From contig NZ_FNKU01000001.1 in assembly GCF_900100365.1 (NCBI RefSeq), forward strand, positions 2,232,001-2,296,000: a stretch of 64,000 nucleotides of DNA, written 5' to 3'. Every line of letters begins with the position of its first letter. The first letter of the stretch is position 1. Below, piece by piece: positions 4,957-45,709 of the stretch. The position numbers and the translations under genes were made by a program. Under the pieces are notes generated by a model. The model worked only from the letters and a program-made list of their open reading frames with translations. It was not told the origin of the DNA and searched no databases. The stretch comes from Pseudomonas cannabina (GTDB lineage: Bacteria > Pseudomonadota > Gammaproteobacteria > Pseudomonadales > Pseudomonadaceae).

Positions 4957-6165
4957 GGAGACGCTGAACAATTAACCCGTTCGCACCGTCCCCATTTCCA
5001 AGCCGGTTTTTTTCAACCTGCCGGCCTTATTTTACGTTTCTCGAGCAGATTTCTGCCCTCATTTTGCTGAAAGGCGGGCCAGTCCCGCCTTTCAGACGGA
5101 TTTATCCTGCCGTCTGTTGTAAATACCGCTTGGCCAGCATCAGATTGGCCAACCCAAACAAACTGAACAACTGCGCTGTATTCTTTTCCAGCCCACGGTA
5201 GCGAACCTTGCGATGATTGAAGCGCACCTTGATTACCTGGAAGGGGTGCTCGACCTTGGCACGCAGTTGCGCCTTGGCATATTCAATTTTGCGCTTGACC
5301 CGATACAGCACGCTGCCTTCGCCGTGCTGCTTGTAACTGCTTGGCCGTTCTGCAATCGACCAGATAACGTCCCGTTCAGCATGCTCCGGTCGCTTGGCCG
5401 CACCGGTGTATCCAGCGTCACCCGAAACATAGGTTTCGTCACCGTGAAGCAACTGGCCAACCTGGGTGACATCCGCCACGTTAGCGGCCGTCCCTACTAC
5501 GCTGTGCACCAGCCCCGACGTGGCGTCTACACCAATGTGGGCCTTCATCCCAAAGTGCCATTGATTGCCTTTCCTGGCCTGATGCATCTCAGGATCACGC
5601 TTGCCTTCTCGGTTCTTGACCGAGGGCGGCGCGGCGATCAGAGTAGCGTCGACGATAGTGCCTTCCTTGAGCAGCAGCCCCCGGCTGGCCAGATGCTGGT
5701 TAATCGTTTCAAACAGCAGCCGGGTTAGCTGATGGACTTCCAGCAAGCGGCGAAAACGCAGCAAGGTGGTGGCATCCGGTGCAGACTCGCGACCCAGGTC
5801 GATACCCATAAAACCGCGGATGGCCTGGCTGTCGTAGACGGCATCTTCGCAACCTTCATCGGAGAAACCGAAACACTGCTGCACGACGTACATGCGCAAC
5901 ATGCGCGACACCCCTATCGCAGGGCGTCCGCGCTTGCCTGCGGTGTTGCTATAAAACGGCGCCACTTGCGCCTCCAGCAGGGCCCAGGGCACCAACTGTT
6001 CAAGGTCAGCCAGGAAGCGATCTCGGCGAGTCTGCTTTTTCTTGCCGGTATATTCGAGTTCGGAGAAGGTCTTCTGCACGCGCGTAACGCTCACGGAGAG
6101 GGAGGCTGTTGAAGGAACTTAGTGTGCCAAGGGTGGGGACAGTTGGCTATTTTTGCAGCGCCTCC
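4957..6165 (-). mobile_element. IS-B (IS5-family insertion sequence)
   Basis: A 1209-bp element with ends GGAGACGCTGAACAA and, on the other side, GGAGGCGCTGCAAAAA (read inward), flanked by CTAG on both sides (4953-4956 and 6166-6169). The left CTAG is shared with IS-A copy 1. The end sequence links it to the 99-bp MITEs at 3074 and 13057. Confidence 0.92.
5102..6094 (-). CDS. IS-B transposase (IS5 family)
   Basis: A 330-residue intact transposase of the IS5 group. The N-terminal domain (FSELEY, then LVPWALLEAQVAPFY) and the DDE domain are visible: Asp in GTIVDATLI, Asp in YVSGDAGYTG and Glu in KVEHPFQVIK, with the characteristic Y-x2-R-x3-R region FNHRKVRYRGLEKN after it. Protein and ends differ from IS-A, so two IS5-type elements lie side by side. 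Confidence 0.93.
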   Translation of the reverse strand: MSVTRVQKTFSELEYTGKKKQTRRDRFLADLEQLVPWALLEAQVAPFYSNTAGKRGRPAIGVSRMLRMYVVQQCFGFSDEGCEDAVYDSQAIRGFMGIDLGRESAPDATTLLRFRRLLEVHQLTRLLFETINQHLASRGLLLKEGTIVDATLIAAPPSVKNREGKRDPEMHQARKGNQWHFGMKAHIGVDATSGLVHSVVGTAANVADVTQVGQLLHGDETYVSGDAGYTGAAKRPEHAERDVIWSIAERPSSYKQHGEGSVLYRVKRKIEYAKAQLRAKVEHPFQVIKVRFNHRKVRYRGLEKNTAQLFSLFGLANLMLAKRYLQQTAG

Positions 6166-6169
6166 CTAG

Positions 6170-6269
6170 GTATCCTCTGAAAAAGCCCATTTTTTTGGAG
6201 AGGAACCGGGCTGGAGCGCCTGTATTTACTGGCTTCGACTTTTGAAGAAAAGGCTTTTTCAGACCTTCC
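6170..6269. mobile_element. 100-bp MITE-like element with CTAG flanks
   Basis: This 100-bp stretch sits between CTAG (6166-6169) and CTAG (6270-6273). Its ends contain an inverted repeat: CTCTGAAAAAGCC near the left end and GGCTTTTTCAGACCTTCC at the right end (12 matched bases, with the outermost left bases diverged). It has no ORF. It is probably a non-autonomous element or a remnant of a third IS type; no matching transposase is in the window. Confidence 0.6.
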
Positions 6270-6273
6270 CTAG

Positions 6274-7450
6274 AGGGTGTAGACAAAATAAATTAAACTT
6301 TCACTCCCTTGTCTGAATAGCCCTCAAGCCATGCCTAAAACCGGACGTCCTCGCTCGATTGCCGCCGAGCACTATCCCGTGCTGGTGAAACTCGCTCATG
6401 CACAGCCCTATTCCAGCCAGGCCGAATTGGCGCTCGTATTCTTCGCCGAAACCGGTATCACTGCGCATCCCGACACCTTTGCAAAAGCGTTGAAAATGGC
6501 AGGGATTACGCGTGTAAAGCAGCGGGCCAAGGGAAGTTTTCAGTCACCTGAACCTAATAAAGCCTATGGCTACAATGAAACCCACCGCCGCCAACTGCCG
6601 GAGCAGCTATATCCGAGTTGCTTGACAGATACCGAGTGGGCACTGGTCGCCGACCTGTTTGAAAGCCAGGGCGGACGAGGAGTGCCACCGCTTCACTCTC
6701 GGCGCACGTTGCTGGAAGCCTGTTGCTATGTCGTACGCACGGGGTGCTCATGGCGAATGCTACCCCGCGATTTTCCTCATTGGGACAATGTCTACAAAAC
6801 GTTCCGCCGGTGGAGCGCTCAAGGCAAGTTCGAGCAAATGCATGATCGCTTGCGAGCTCAATGGCGTGAGCGGGAAGAACGCGCTGACAGCCCGTCAGCA
6901 GCGATCCTGGATTCACAGTCGACCCGCAGTTCTCCTCAAGGCGGTGACAGCGGCTACGACGCAGGCAAAAAAGTGAAGGGGCGTAAACGAAGTCTGATTG
7001 TCGATACATTGGGCCTGCTGCTGGCTGTCAGTATCAGTGCTGCAAGCGTGCAGGATCGTGACGCGGCGGATGATGCGGTGGCGTACTCGAAGGAAAAATA
7101 TCCGTCACTGAGCACGCTTTTTGTTGATAGTGCGTACGCAGGAAAATGGGCACAGCGCACCCATCAACTGCACGCTATCGATGTTCAAGTGATCCGTGGC
7201 CCGAATAACAGAAGAACAGGGCAATGGCACTCTGAACAAGGCGATCTATTTTCCGTGGAGCCTGTTCAGACTGGATTTGTGGTCATGCCCAAGCGATGGG
7301 TAGTGGAGCGAACTCATGCCTGGAATGAGAGAGCTCGGCGACTGATCATGCATCATGATCGCCTTTTTGCGGTAAGCGAGGCATGGGTTTGGTTGGCCGA
7401 GGCTCGAATACTCGCGCGCCGACTCACTACATGATTTTGTCTACACCCTC
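6274..7450 (+). mobile_element. IS-A copy 2 (inverted)
   Basis: A second 1177-bp copy, in opposite orientation to copy 1 and bounded by CTAG at 6270-6273 and 7451-7454. With copy 1 it encloses IS-B and the 100-bp element, giving the outline of a composite transposon, although the enclosed DNA is only mobile elements. Confidence 0.93.
6331..7434 (+). CDS. IS-A transposase (IS5 family), copy 2
   Basis: Identical 367-residue protein to that of IS-A copy 1, with the same DDE residues. The identity of the two copies suggests recent transposition or gene conversion. Confidence 0.93.
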   Translation: MPKTGRPRSIAAEHYPVLVKLAHAQPYSSQAELALVFFAETGITAHPDTFAKALKMAGITRVKQRAKGSFQSPEPNKAYGYNETHRRQLPEQLYPSCLTDTEWALVADLFESQGGRGVPPLHSRRTLLEACCYVVRTGCSWRMLPRDFPHWDNVYKTFRRWSAQGKFEQMHDRLRAQWREREERADSPSAAILDSQSTRSSPQGGDSGYDAGKKVKGRKRSLIVDTLGLLLAVSISAASVQDRDAADDAVAYSKEKYPSLSTLFVDSAYAGKWAQRTHQLHAIDVQVIRGPNNRRTGQWHSEQGDLFSVEPVQTGFVVMPKRWVVERTHAWNERARRLIMHHDRLFAVSEAWVWLAEARILARRLTT

Positions 7451-36954: not shown

Positions 36955-37030
36955 TGGTTGCGAGGGGTGGATTCGAACCACCGACCTTCGGGATATGAGC
37001 CCGACGAGCTGACCGCTGCTCCACCACGCA
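36955..37030 (-). tRNA. Phage tRNA-Met(CAT), initiator-like
   Basis: 76 nt with encoded CCA. D-stem GAGC/GCTC, anticodon stem TCGGG/CCCGA with loop CTCATAT (anticodon CAT), T-stem GGTGG/CCACC with TTCGAAT. The three G-C pairs of the anticodon stem and the D/anticodon sequence are those of bacterial initiator tRNA. The acceptor stem TGCGTGG/CCTCGCA has one T-T mismatch, and position 1-72 is a weak T-A pair. Lies at the start of the late operon. Confidence 0.85.
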
Positions 37031-42893: not shown

Positions 42894-43118
42894 TTAAGCG
42901 GCGGTTAACGTTTCTGTTTCCGGGGGGAATGCGTCATCCAGAGCGCAAGCCGCGCCCAGCTGATTAAGCGCAAGGACAATAAGTCGCGCTTCGCTAAGGC
43001 CTGGGCTGCGAAGACCTGACTCGTAGTTCGCGAGACGTGATTGATTCCAGCCGAGCGCCCGACGCAGCGCTGCCTGGGTCACGCCAGCTTTCTCTCGGAT
43101 CATTCGGACGTGGTTCAT
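42894..43118 (-). CDS. Cro-like repressor
   Basis: 74 residues from ATG 43118, with GGAGGAAA upstream; the frame back to 43295 runs over the operators and is not used. XRE helix-turn-helix (VTQAALRRALGWNQSRLANY). Divergent from cI, with the operators between them. Confidence 0.85.
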   Translation of the reverse strand: MNHVRMIREKAGVTQAALRRALGWNQSRLANYESGLRSPGLSEARLIVLALNQLGAACALDDAFPPETETLTAA

Positions 43119-43142: not shown

Positions 43143-43171
43143 AGGATAAACACGTATCGTGTTAAAGGCAA
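43143..43171 (-). promoter_or_regulatory. PR-like promoter of the cro operon
   Basis: Minus strand: TTGCCT (43171-43166), 17-bp spacer, TATCCT (43148-43143). The spacer contains the whole operator AACACGTATCGTGTT, so repressor binding would directly block polymerase. Confidence 0.65.
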
Positions 43172-43207
43172 ACACAATAAGTGAGAACGGGCATTTCATA
43201 TCGTGAT
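43149..43207. promoter_or_regulatory. Operator array OR-like (three sites at 22-bp spacing)
   Basis: Site 1 AACACGTATCGTGTT (43149-43163) is a perfect 6-bp inverted repeat; site 2 AACACAATAAGTGAG (43171-43185); site 3 has only a good right half (ATATCGTGAT, up to 43207). Starts are 22 bp apart, that is, two helical turns, suiting cooperative repressor binding. The same motif occurs at 45669 and 45693. Confidence 0.7.
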
Positions 43208-43221
43208 TAGAATTCCACGCT

Positions 43222-43887
43222 ATGAATGAATCTCTCGGACAAAGGCTGCAGCGCTTGCGCAATGCGGCAGGAAAATCGCAAGCCGCGCTGGCCAAGCTGT
43301 GCGGCTGGAGCTCTCAATCACGCGTGGGTAACTACGAATCAGGCACGCGCGAGCCGACGCTCGGCGACATCGAGTTGATGGCTAAGGCGCTGGGAGTTCC
43401 TTACGGGGTTTTACTTATCGGAGAAGATTTCGAGGCATCTAAAGCTCAAATACCAGAACCATCCAACGTAGCGATGATCGCCCAGCAAGAGCGGATGTAC
43501 CGTTACCCGGTCCTGAGCTGGGTTGCTGCTGGAGATTGGTCCGAGGCGATCGAGCCTGGTGGCTCTGAGGAATACGAGCTCACGGACTACAAGGCCAAAG
43601 GCCCGGCGTTCTGGCTGGCGGTCAAGGGAGACTCAATGACGGCACCTACGGCCCCATCAGTTCCAGAGGGCTCGCTCATCCTTGTTGATACTCGCGCAGA
43701 TGTGCGCCCAGGCAAGCTTGTTATTGCGAAGCTGGCCGGCAGCAATGAGGCGACGTTCAAGAAGCTGGTAGAAGACGGCGGGGTCAGATACCTGAAGCCG
43801 CTGAACCCGGCATACCCCACTGTGCAGTGCTCGGATGACTGCAAGATCATTGGTGTGGTGGTCAGGTCGCTAACGAAATTTGCATGA
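43222..43887 (+). CDS. CI-type repressor (XRE + S24 peptidase)
   Basis: 221 residues. XRE helix-turn-helix at 15-60 (KSQAALAKLCGWSSQSRVGN), linker, then LexA-like S24 domain: cleavage site Ala103-Gly104 in VAAGDW, catalytic Ser138 in GDSMT and Lys near 180 (EATFKKL). It holds lysogeny and should be inactivated by RecA-ssDNA. First gene of the immunity operon with three genes after it. Confidence 0.9.
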   Translation: MNESLGQRLQRLRNAAGKSQAALAKLCGWSSQSRVGNYESGTREPTLGDIELMAKALGVPYGVLLIGEDFEASKAQIPEPSNVAMIAQQERMYRYPVLSWVAAGDWSEAIEPGGSEEYELTDYKAKGPAFWLAVKGDSMTAPTAPSVPEGSLILVDTRADVRPGKLVIAKLAGSNEATFKKLVEDGGVRYLKPLNPAYPTVQCSDDCKIIGVVVRSLTKFA

Positions 43888-43896
43888 AAGCCGAGC

Positions 43897-43928
43897 CATA
43901 TGGCGCGGCGGGAATTTGTAGGAGTACC
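43897..43928 (+). repeat. Intergenic direct repeat, copy 1
   Basis: A 32-bp stretch CATATGGCGCGGCGGGAATT and onward to TGTAGGAGTACC, right after cI and carrying the ribosome site of the next gene. It matches the stretch at 44178 in about 28 of 32 positions. Confidence 0.7.
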
Positions 43929-43932
43929 AGTC

Positions 43933-44172
43933 ATGGGATTGACGAAGCCGAATCAACAACTCGCACGCGACCTACAGGGCCTCGCCTCTGACTTGAAGTG
44001 GTCGGCCGTGGAGTTGCTGCGGATCGTCGAGCGATTGAGCCTAGCGGGTAACGAGCCTGATGCTCAGGCCATCCTGAAGATGATCATTCTGTTCCAAGCC
44101 GACGAGGACAAGCTGGCTGGGTATGTAGATGAGGTAAGGGCAGGAAGGATTGTACGGGAACGATCTGAGTAG
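43933..44172 (+). CDS. Small helical protein in the immunity operon
   Basis: 79 residues from ATG 43933 (GTAGGAG upstream). MGLTKPNQQLARDLQGLASD, all helical and amphipathic, with NEPDAQAILKMIILFQADED. Stop is TAG. It is expressed with cI in the lysogen by position; no family recognised. Confidence 0.62.
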   Translation: MGLTKPNQQLARDLQGLASDLKWSAVELLRIVERLSLAGNEPDAQAILKMIILFQADEDKLAGYVDEVRAGRIVRERSE

Positions 44173-44177
44173 CCGTA

Positions 44178-44209
44178 TCATCTGGCGCGGCGGGGATTTG
44201 TAGGAATGA
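44178..44209 (+). repeat. Intergenic direct repeat, copy 2
   Basis: CATCTGGCGCGGCGGGGATT and on to TGTAGGAATGAC. Here the ribosome site is followed by an ATG with only eight codons before TGA. A GC-rich inverted repeat (GCCCGCACCGGC...GCCGG...GCGGG) follows at 44213-44262. Confidence 0.65.
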
Positions 44210-44300
44210 CAAAGCCCGCACCGGCAGGGTGACGGCCGGAATATTGTGCGGTAGCGGGAGTTAGTCGGCATCAGTTTTCGGCATCTAAAGGAATGACTTC

Positions 44301-44798
44301 GTGATTTTCAGTGAAGAGTTGATATGTGAATTGCTTTCGATGCCGAAGGTGGTGATGAACCCGAATGCGAAAGCCAAGGTCCAAAAGAAATCCGAGCGCA
44401 TCACGTATCAAATTGAGTCTGCTGACGGCGAAAAGTCATTTGAGATGTACACCCGACAGAACCAGATAGACCCTGATGCTTATTCCTGCGGACTGATCTA
44501 CCACCCAAAGCGCGGCGAAAAGGTGACGCTGGTTCGCTACAACGGAAGCAACCATGTTCACTTGAACCCGCTGGAGGATGGTGAGCTTATCGTGAATCGG
44601 TGCCACATTCACCGAGCTACTCAGCGATACATGGAGATGGGAGAGAAGGCAGAAAAATATGCTGAGACCACGGATCGCTACGATCACCTATCTGGGGCTA
44701 TGCTATGTATGCTAGAGGACTGCAATATTACCGGCCTCGACCTACCGAACGACGATCCTGCCCCCCCCTATGAACCACAAATGAGCCTTGGACTGTGA
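44301..44798 (+). CDS. DUF6978-like protein (rexA position)
   Basis: 165 residues from GTG 44301. MIFSEELICELLSMPKVVMN..., with RITYQIESADGEKSFEMYTR, VRYNGSNHVHLNPLEDGEL and IVNRCHIHRATQRYM; looks like the DUF6978 family, which is a small alpha/beta protein. Its stop shares GTGA with the next start, so the pair is translationally coupled. Less GC-rich than the phage core. Lies between cI and the terminators, where lambda carries rexA. Confidence 0.72.
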   Translation: MIFSEELICELLSMPKVVMNPNAKAKVQKKSERITYQIESADGEKSFEMYTRQNQIDPDAYSCGLIYHPKRGEKVTLVRYNGSNHVHLNPLEDGELIVNRCHIHRATQRYMEMGEKAEKYAETTDRYDHLSGAMLCMLEDCNITGLDLPNDDPAPPYEPQMSLGL

Positions 44799-45565
44799 AT
44801 GAGGTTGCTGCAATTAAAGAGACCCTATGTGCCGCATTCTGTGAGGATGTGGCTGTCTCTGTGCGCGGTAATTTACTGACTGTTTCGCTGCCTATGGTGG
44901 CAAGGGATGGTGACTCGTTCACGACATATCTCAGCAGGGTTTCTGGCGGCTGGAGGATATCCGACGCCGCCAACACCATGATGCGGCTTAGCTATGAAAA
45001 TGACCTGGCCAAGCTGCTGACCGGCCCAAGGGCAAGACTTTTTGAAACGATACTTTCTGAGAACGGACTTCAGGAGGATGACGGAGAGATATTTCTGGAA
45101 GTCCCTGCCGATCGCCTTGTGCGCGGAATATTTCAGCTGGGACAGGGCCTAAGCCGCGTAGAGGATATATCTCTGTGGTCTAGAACCCGGGTCGAGTCGA
45201 CTTTCTATCACGACCTCCGCGAGGTGCTTTATGCGACCCTTCCAGCGGATCGCATCGAGGAATCGTATGCTCCCGAAATACCTTCAGGAGAAGACTATTC
45301 GATTGATTACCGAATAAAGACGGACGCTCGCCGCCCCTTATTCATCTTCGGGGTTAACGGTAAGGATAAGGCTCGCCTTACCACCATCACCCTTCTGCAC
45401 TTGAAACATCAAGGGCTGAAGTTTGATTCAATGGTGGTGTGCAGCGACTTTAACGAACTGCCAAAGCAGGACGCCTCCCGCCTGATGACCGCGGCGAATG
45501 ACATTGTGCCAAATGTTGCAGATATTCAGACCATCCGAGACAAAATACTCGACAGAGTATCCTGA
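44795..45565 (+). CDS. DUF1828/DUF1829 protein (rexB position)
   Basis: 256 residues from a GTG at 44795. The N-terminal 90 residues (DGDSFTTYLSRVSGGWRISD, then TMMRL, LFETILSENGLQEDDGEIF) match the DUF1828 pattern, the C-terminal part (YSIDYRIKTDARRPLFIFGV) the DUF1829 pattern, which is nuclease- or ligand-binding-like in fold by appearance only. Known from prophages and mobile islands. Likely works with the upstream gene; tandem terminators follow. Confidence 0.75.
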   Translation: MNEVAAIKETLCAAFCEDVAVSVRGNLLTVSLPMVARDGDSFTTYLSRVSGGWRISDAANTMMRLSYENDLAKLLTGPRARLFETILSENGLQEDDGEIFLEVPADRLVRGIFQLGQGLSRVEDISLWSRTRVESTFYHDLREVLYATLPADRIEESYAPEIPSGEDYSIDYRIKTDARRPLFIFGVNGKDKARLTTITLLHLKHQGLKFDSMVVCSDFNELPKQDASRLMTAANDIVPNVADIQTIRDKILDRVS

Positions 45566-45625: not shown

Positions 45626-45650
45626 AGCCCGCCACTGAGCGGGCTTTTTT
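45626..45650 (+). terminator. Intrinsic terminator 2 of the immunity operon
   Basis: AGCCCGC-6 nt-GCGGGCT followed by TTTTT. A tandem back-up that isolates the immunity operon from the PL-like early promoter just downstream. Confidence 0.82.
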
Positions 45651-45668: not shown

Positions 45669-45709
45669 ATCACAAAACGTGTTGACTGAATAAACACAAT
45701 ACGTGATAG
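45669..45709 (+). promoter_or_regulatory. PL-like early promoter with two repressor operators
   Basis: -35 TTGACT (45682-45687), 16 to 17 bp, -10 TGATAG (45704-45709). Operators ATCACAAAACGTGTT (45669-45683) and AACACAATACGTGAT (45693-45707) overlap the -35 and fill the spacer. They share the AWCAC...CGTGWT pattern of the OR sites. This should be the repressed promoter of the recombination/integration operon. Confidence 0.75.

Follow-up and report, generated by a model that had tools for sequence, protein, structure and literature searches.

A DUF6978-DUF1828 gene pair behind the repressor of a Pseudomonas cannabina prophage: a candidate exclusion module with a predicted clamp-binding tail

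A 64,000-nucleotide stretch of Pseudomonas cannabina DNA (contig NZ_FNKU01000001.1, positions 2,232,001 to 2,296,000; the whole stretch is hereafter the window) contains a prophage immunity region in which two overlapping genes, here called A and B, lie behind the cI-like repressor at window positions 44301-45565. We consider the pair to be probably a prophage exclusion module, that is, one with an anti-phage defence function. This reading is drawn from three contexts: the slot behind the repressor, the restriction-modification (R-M) genes found beside the pair outside phages, and the other cargo that related slots hold. A ends in a short motif of the kind that binds the bacterial sliding clamp DnaN, which suggests how such a module may work.

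Family Identity and Pairing

A matches the Pfam family DUF6978 (PF22398; E = 4e-10, 40.5 bits against a cut-off of 29.6) and B matches DUF1828 (PF08861; E = 1.2e-16). Both families had been named in a preliminary description of this DNA, made from the letters alone, and both identifications stand; DUF1829, offered there as well, found no match to B in the Pfam scan. The PADLOC-DB models PDC-M24A and PDC-M24B match A (2.3e-7, residues 3-112) and B (1.1e-13, residues 23-147), respectively, the best-matching stretches spanning part of each model. By these adjacent matches to both models in the same order, the pair is PDC-M24. It was therefore already known as a listed candidate, and the label "undescribed" that the preliminary description gave it has to be withdrawn. 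PDC stands for phage defence candidate (PMC11514479; this and the other papers are cited from the parts of their text that were accessible), and such candidates are described as unvalidated and as discovered through "guilt by embedding" (PMC12988326). In the literature searched, supplements excluded, PDC-M24 is named in no paper and no mechanism was found for it, and the few papers that mention DUF1828 or DUF6978 carry titles on other subjects. What is new here with respect to the listing is the placement in the rex slot, the clamp-motif tail, and the A' and A'' subfamilies described below. The control E. coli genome also has a match to DUF1828 that exceeds the family cut-off, pointing to a gene of this family in a well-studied strain.

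Searches with A, searches with B and phage records together gathered 168 loci (given L numbers), the genome loci being the best 80 of 101 confirmed (79 distinct). Genes were called with a simple custom caller that was checked by eye against one annotated phage. Both A and B were recognised in 164 of the 168. In two of the four exceptions a contig end intervenes (A truncated in L046; B at the contig end in L165), a third has a partial B match preceded by 1.7 kb of sequence with no recognised A (L164), and the last has an A-sized gene that the A profile missed (L168). Dereplication left 117 pairs, from 78 genome contigs, 37 viral contigs, one phage record (L167) and the window itself. B begins within 15 nt of the end of A or overlaps it in 114 of 116 dereplicated pairs, with a 4-nt overlap in 34, and pairing is thus near-obligate. 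In L092 and L154 the B match is divided between two frames. In L167, the sewage phage PACT201 of Pseudomonas, A-like and B-like matches at 5490-6740 are each split over several frames, and the pair of this phage looks broken.

Within the genus, A was found in 3 of 298 genomes, that of the window included, while DNA with some similarity to the cI region occurs in 137 of the same 298. The pair is therefore accessory cargo of this region.

The Slot Behind the Repressor

Linkage to a repressor was counted where at least 2.4 kb of upstream sequence was present, which holds for 35 of 38 viral and 62 of 78 genome loci. Of the 35 viral loci, 28 have a CI-like repressor on the same strand no more than 1.6 kb upstream; for the other same-strand genes in these loci the figure is 16 of 218. 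The P. aeruginosa phage 5371 has the order cro-cI-small gene-A-B, as in the window, and the Rhizobium phage RHph_N28_2 has an S24 repressor, an A-sized gene without a match to the A profile, and a DUF1828 gene in the same order. The placement thus recurs across diverged phages, and in diverged versions of the pair.

What else occupies this position? Eighteen related stretches were surveyed (L202-L219), two of which (L207, L208) had been selected for carrying the pair, and ten products from six stretches, chosen by eye, were scanned. The cargo of these Pseudomonas slots includes RhuM (PDC-S05), HipA_2 with DUF3037 (PDC-M66A/B), Bro-N (PDC-S13), an IrrE-like protein with DUF4411, P63C, which has no PADLOC match, and a divergent version of the pair (L214). 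Given this variety, what lies behind the repressor is changeable cargo, with listed defence candidates appearing in it repeatedly. Prophage P1 of P. putida supports this independently; there, four genes lie directly downstream of the repressor and two of them, of the RexAB type, protect against phages (PMC12894663).

The pair resembles RexAB of lambda and RexABpp of P. putida in consisting of two genes behind a repressor that are presumably expressed in the lysogen, and lambda RexAB further in lying, in the window and in coliphage ev207, between cI and the PL/N region. The proteins themselves appear to differ. RexBpp is described as a four-helix membrane protein and RexApp as DNA-binding (PMC12894663), whereas a 19-residue hydropathy scan found no transmembrane-like segment in A or B (maximal means of 1.17 and 1.16 in the window proteins; 1.53 and 1.71 across the families), and the Pfam families scoring above cut-off for A and B are solely DUF6978 and DUF1828.

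Divergent Subfamilies

The divergent version in L214 consists of A', a protein of 172 aa that matches neither Pfam nor any PADLOC model and so departs from the PDC-M24 listing, and B', which matches DUF1828 (6e-7) and PDC-M24B (1.4e-6). A' is present in eleven viral contigs (8 distinct proteins). In all eleven the start of B' directly adjoins the end of A', and at most 0.9 kb separates A' from a CI-like repressor upstream.

A search with B' matched the coliphages ev207, ev017, PhiR63_2 and PhiR57_1. The two of these records that were inspected, ev207 and PhiR63_2, have the order cI-A''-DUF1828-N-sieB. On the lambda map rexAB lies between cI and N. The coliphage pair, standing between these same genes, therefore takes the rexAB position. 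Together with the repressor counts, these loci bear out the rex-like position proposed in the preliminary description. At 99% identity or more, the coliphage version occurs in 239 of 5426 complete E. coli genomes; Nissle 1917 is an example, with the pair beside an incomplete integrase gene. In these lambda-like coliphages (L250, 6447-7753) the A'' of the pair between cI and N is annotated merely as a hypothetical protein.

Profile comparison with hhalign joins these proteins. A against A' and A'' combined gave E = 4.8e-4, with none of 60 shuffles as good and a reversed control at 0.85; A against A' gave 0.008 (0 of 100 shuffles as good), and A' against A'' gave 3.7e-9. The comparison of A with A'' alone is weak (0.014, one of 60 shuffles better). 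The A'' set numbers 21 relatives, 18 of them full-length once three short ones are omitted. At least three diverged subfamilies appear to sit in rex slots, in phages of Pseudomonas, of enterobacteria and possibly of Rhizobium.

A Predicted Clamp-Binding Tail on A

Residues 151-165 of A are disordered in the predicted structure, with a pLDDT (predicted local distance difference test score) of about 55, and the protein ends in QMSLGL. Other members of the family end in QLSLF, QISLF, QIPLF, QLPLL, QTSLF and similar sequences. To count these endings, the final 12 residues were searched for the pattern Qxx[L/M/F] with a hydrophobic residue either next to it or one position further. The count used 112 A proteins, leaving out those broken or cut (L034, L038, L053, L058, L109, L167) and adding that of L168; some proteins truncated by contig ends remain and lower it. 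The pattern is present in 73 of the 112 A proteins, in none of 112 B proteins, and in 31 of the 1536 further proteins encoded at these loci. For the five-residue form, the count is 54 of the 112 A sequences read forward and 4 of the 112 read in reverse. Among the 73, position 4 is L in 65 and position 5 is F in 37. The other subfamilies have comparable endings: every one of the 18 full-length A'' proteins has Q-[IML]-G-[LFI]-x-[LI] at its C-terminus, and the 11 A' proteins have QMDL or QMG[LF] followed by two residues. When the three subfamilies are aligned (11 rows), nine columns are conserved at 90% or more, and one of these is the Q of the tail.

Peptides that bind the bacterial sliding clamp follow the published consensus QL[S/D]LF or QxxLF, and the hexapeptide QLSLPL is reported to bind E. 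coli DnaN tightly (PMC12309361). In transposases the clamp motif is almost always C-terminal (PMC4549789), and the toxin SocB is a known clamp-binding protein (PMC9690074). A of the window thus has what defines a clamp motif, an accessible QxxLx[L] in a tail predicted to be flexible. We consider it somewhat more probable than the contrary that A docks on DnaN through this tail. SocAB of Caulobacter is the closest parallel, a toxin-antitoxin module with a clamp-motif protein (PMC9690074); A differs in that it carries, in addition to the motif, a large conserved core of K, R and H residues, and the likeness is one of motif and layout.

The foremost alternative keeps the defence module and lets the tail of A dock on the chaperone-like N-terminal domain of B (see below), leaving DnaN uninvolved. 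Short hydrophobic tails could bind such a partner. The tail, however, tracks the published clamp consensus position by position, down to hexapeptides such as QIGLPL and QMSLGL, which a motif private to B need not do, and we regard docking on B as unlikely.

The Core of A and the Domains of B

The structural model of A is confident (pLDDT 92.3), with one helix, many strands and a last helix. Conservation across the 112 proteins centres on R79, H102 and H104 (112 of 112), H87 and N89 (111), R52 and N81 (110), H85 and S62 (108) and K16 (107). Across the 11 aligned rows of all three subfamilies, H87, N89, H102 and H104 alone are invariant. This cluster of K, R, N and H residues looks like an active or metal site, and the reaction that it would catalyse is most likely that of a phosphodiesterase or nuclease acting on nucleic acid. 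A also matches the PADLOC PtuB model weakly (0.0039, 14.7 bits, residues 57-126).

TumE-TumA (DUF6516) shares with the pair a local RY[D/N]N...HxH motif and the bicistronic layout (PMC10584680). A relationship of A to TumE was considered and rejected, as hhalign gave E = 0.14 with 16 of 100 column shuffles as good against a nine-sequence TumE profile; with a five-sequence profile the value was 0.033.

B has two domains and many invariant residues. In the predicted structure its N-terminal domain resembles type III secretion chaperones, and its C-terminal domain resembles PD-(D/E)XK nucleases (PspGI, Can2/Cdn1, BsoBI), response-regulator folds scoring nearly equally. D171 is kept in the latter domain, but no (D/E)xK is present; the third strand reads PLFIFGVN. 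Because the ExK is absent from this strand, B is probably not an active nuclease.

Loci Outside Phages

In the 65 loci without a CI-like match, the neighbours scanned were same-strand genes within 400 nt that encode at least 150 aa (33 upstream, 30 downstream), and the first 25 families were listed for each set. The upstream set contains eight N6_N4_Mtase, two ResIII and one each of MmeI, DUF6079, HerA-like and HSDR_N, and the downstream set seven ResIII and three N6_N4_Mtase. Distal control genes of the same loci include N6_N4_Mtase in 1 of 66 and, within the families listed, ResIII in at most 1 of 66, which is not a proven zero. PADLOC recognised a Type II/III methylase, a Type III enzyme and two PglX matches among the non-phage neighbours. 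Restriction-modification genes are thus enriched beside the pair outside phages.

These neighbours bear on the second alternative, a type II toxin-antitoxin or addiction module for prophage maintenance, with A the toxin (a SocB-like clamp inhibitor, or an RNase or DNase) and B the antitoxin. The two small overlapping genes, near-obligately paired, are laid out as such modules usually are, their distribution in the genus is patchy (3 of 298 genomes), and HipA_2-DUF3037 and IrrE-DUF4411 pairs are among their slot neighbours. B, however, with its size, two domains and many invariant residues, is atypical compared with a small DNA-binding antitoxin, and the adjoining R-M genes suit defence better than addiction, so that we hold this explanation to be about as unlikely as docking on B, or slightly more so. 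An improbable third explanation is that the pair serves the phage's own lysogeny tuning or replication: A on the clamp would aid or restrain prophage replication, and defence would be secondary or lacking altogether. Modulation of the CI switch is reported for lambda RexA (PMC12894663), and clamp-binding motifs are also found in ordinary replication proteins and transposases, but a phage core function does not fit a pair that stands beside R-M genes far from phages and is rare in the genus though related repressor regions are common.

Layout of the Immunity Region

The features of the region are listed below in window coordinates.

42894-43118, minus strand: cro-like helix-turn-helix (HTH) gene (Pfam HTH_3/HTH_31)
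43149-43185: two OR-like repressor operators in the cI/cro gap (sites at 43149 and 43171)
43222-43887, plus strand: cI-like repressor, HTH and Peptidase_S24, 221 aa (Pfam PF00717, 2.3e-28; phrog_4)
43900-44172, plus strand: small phrog_6388 gene (PHROG match; likely start 43933)
44301-44798, plus strand: gene A, DUF6978, PADLOC PDC-M24A, GTG start, 165 aa
44778-44795, plus strand: predicted clamp-binding tail of A, QMSLGL (motif in a disordered region)
44795-45565, plus strand: gene B, DUF1828, PADLOC PDC-M24B, GTG start, 256 aa
45569-45591, plus strand: intrinsic terminator 1, hairpin followed by a T-rich run
45626-45645, plus strand: intrinsic terminator 2, hairpin followed by a T-rich run
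45669-45707: two OL-like repressor operators (sites at 45669 and 45693), marking the presumptive PL region

The coordinates and hairpins confirm the order of A and B behind cI, the two terminators, and the GTGA at 44795-44798 common to the end of A and the start of B, all as described before. Like the preliminary description, we infer a fixed A:B stoichiometry and expression of the pair in the lysogen.

That description also took the layout to be exactly that of lambda, which holds in part. A weight matrix built from only the two operator-like sites of the cI/cro gap scores the sites at 45669 and 45693 at 17.5-17.6 bits, while the best site outside both clusters in the 64 kb reaches 12.2. As these post-terminator sites outscore the rest of the window, the lambda-type arrangement of two clusters, OR and OL, is present. 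Unlike in lambda, one additional small gene, phrog_6388, separates cI from the pair, and the sequence at 45.68 kb has no consensus promoter by a sigma-70 scan, so that we infer PL here from the operators. The PHROG match of the small gene begins only at residue 12, and the ATG at 43933 is therefore probably its true start. The cassette has a G+C content of 51.2% against 57.9% for the window, in line with the lower value remarked on earlier, and 2% of equal-sized windows are equally low.

Several further observations concern the DNA of this region. An 18-nt inverted repeat, 89% complementary, at 44277-44347 flanks the ribosome-binding site and GTG start of A. Its folding beats shuffled sequences (z = -2.95, 1 of 200 as good), and the hairpin is kept in the near-identical relative L083; in L003 and L084 folding favours other structures. 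A 35-nt direct repeat (86%) stands before the phrog_6388 gene (43889-43923) and again between that gene and A (44171-44205), and related loci L009 and L207 have two phrog_6388-like genes in the corresponding stretch, as if the slot were growing by duplication. Open reading frames at 49.3-51.2 kb encode what we take to be ERF-like, YqaJ-like and SSB-like products and read like a recombination operon. A tRNA-Met gene on the minus strand (36955-37030) lies apparently inside the prophage.

Proposed Function and Implications

How might such a module act? In the mechanism we propose, A and B would be transcribed together with the CI repressor in the lysogen, and the C-terminal tail of A would dock on the host sliding clamp DnaN. 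B, as partner, would restrain or position A, which would be held in check in uninfected cells. Infection by a phage that uses the host replisome would free A, and the freed protein would attack or stall the replication forks of the phage, or those of the cell in an abortive infection, a logic akin to that of the clamp-binding toxin SocB. Taken jointly, defence, docking of A on DnaN and regulation by B make a tentative proposal that we would not bet on as a whole.

A number of observations weigh against it. The tail motif was spotted before it was counted, it was counted on related sequences, and 39 of the 112 A proteins lack it, 12 of them among the 51 proteins of the phage/repressor set; the tail is therefore a strong prediction and not proof. 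Some of the A proteins without the pattern end in acidic tails with DMW or DMF, and a short hydrophobic tail could, as said, bind B instead. A matches no known fold convincingly, so that an enzymatic role rests on conservation and the weak PtuB match. The nuclease-like domain of B has no ExK, and response-regulator folds score close to it. In L202 the RhuM gene is on the strand opposite to cI, which means that not all slot content is co-transcribed with the repressor.

The loci outside phages cut both ways. The preliminary description had named, as a finding that would speak against it, a pair found mostly in non-phage contexts with a housekeeping link. The first half agrees with the data, as a CI-like repressor is missing from the 1.6 kb upstream in 52 of the 62 genome loci. 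The second half does not: R-M genes are enriched, and although the other neighbours are a varied set with many unrelated metabolic genes, no repeated housekeeping pathway was seen in the families listed.

More speculative still is a whole class of replisome-riding exclusion systems, which would combine an effector with a K/R/H site, placed on the clamp, with a DUF1828 partner, in at least three subfamilies, and would occupy rex slots and R-M loci across phyla. Should the proposal be right, a widespread candidate defence pair that lacks a mechanism would gain a concrete one, docking on the replication clamp, and this docking could be probed by altering individual tail residues. Lambda's own rex slot would then be one case of a more general site after the repressor gene where unrelated exclusion systems are swapped as cargo.
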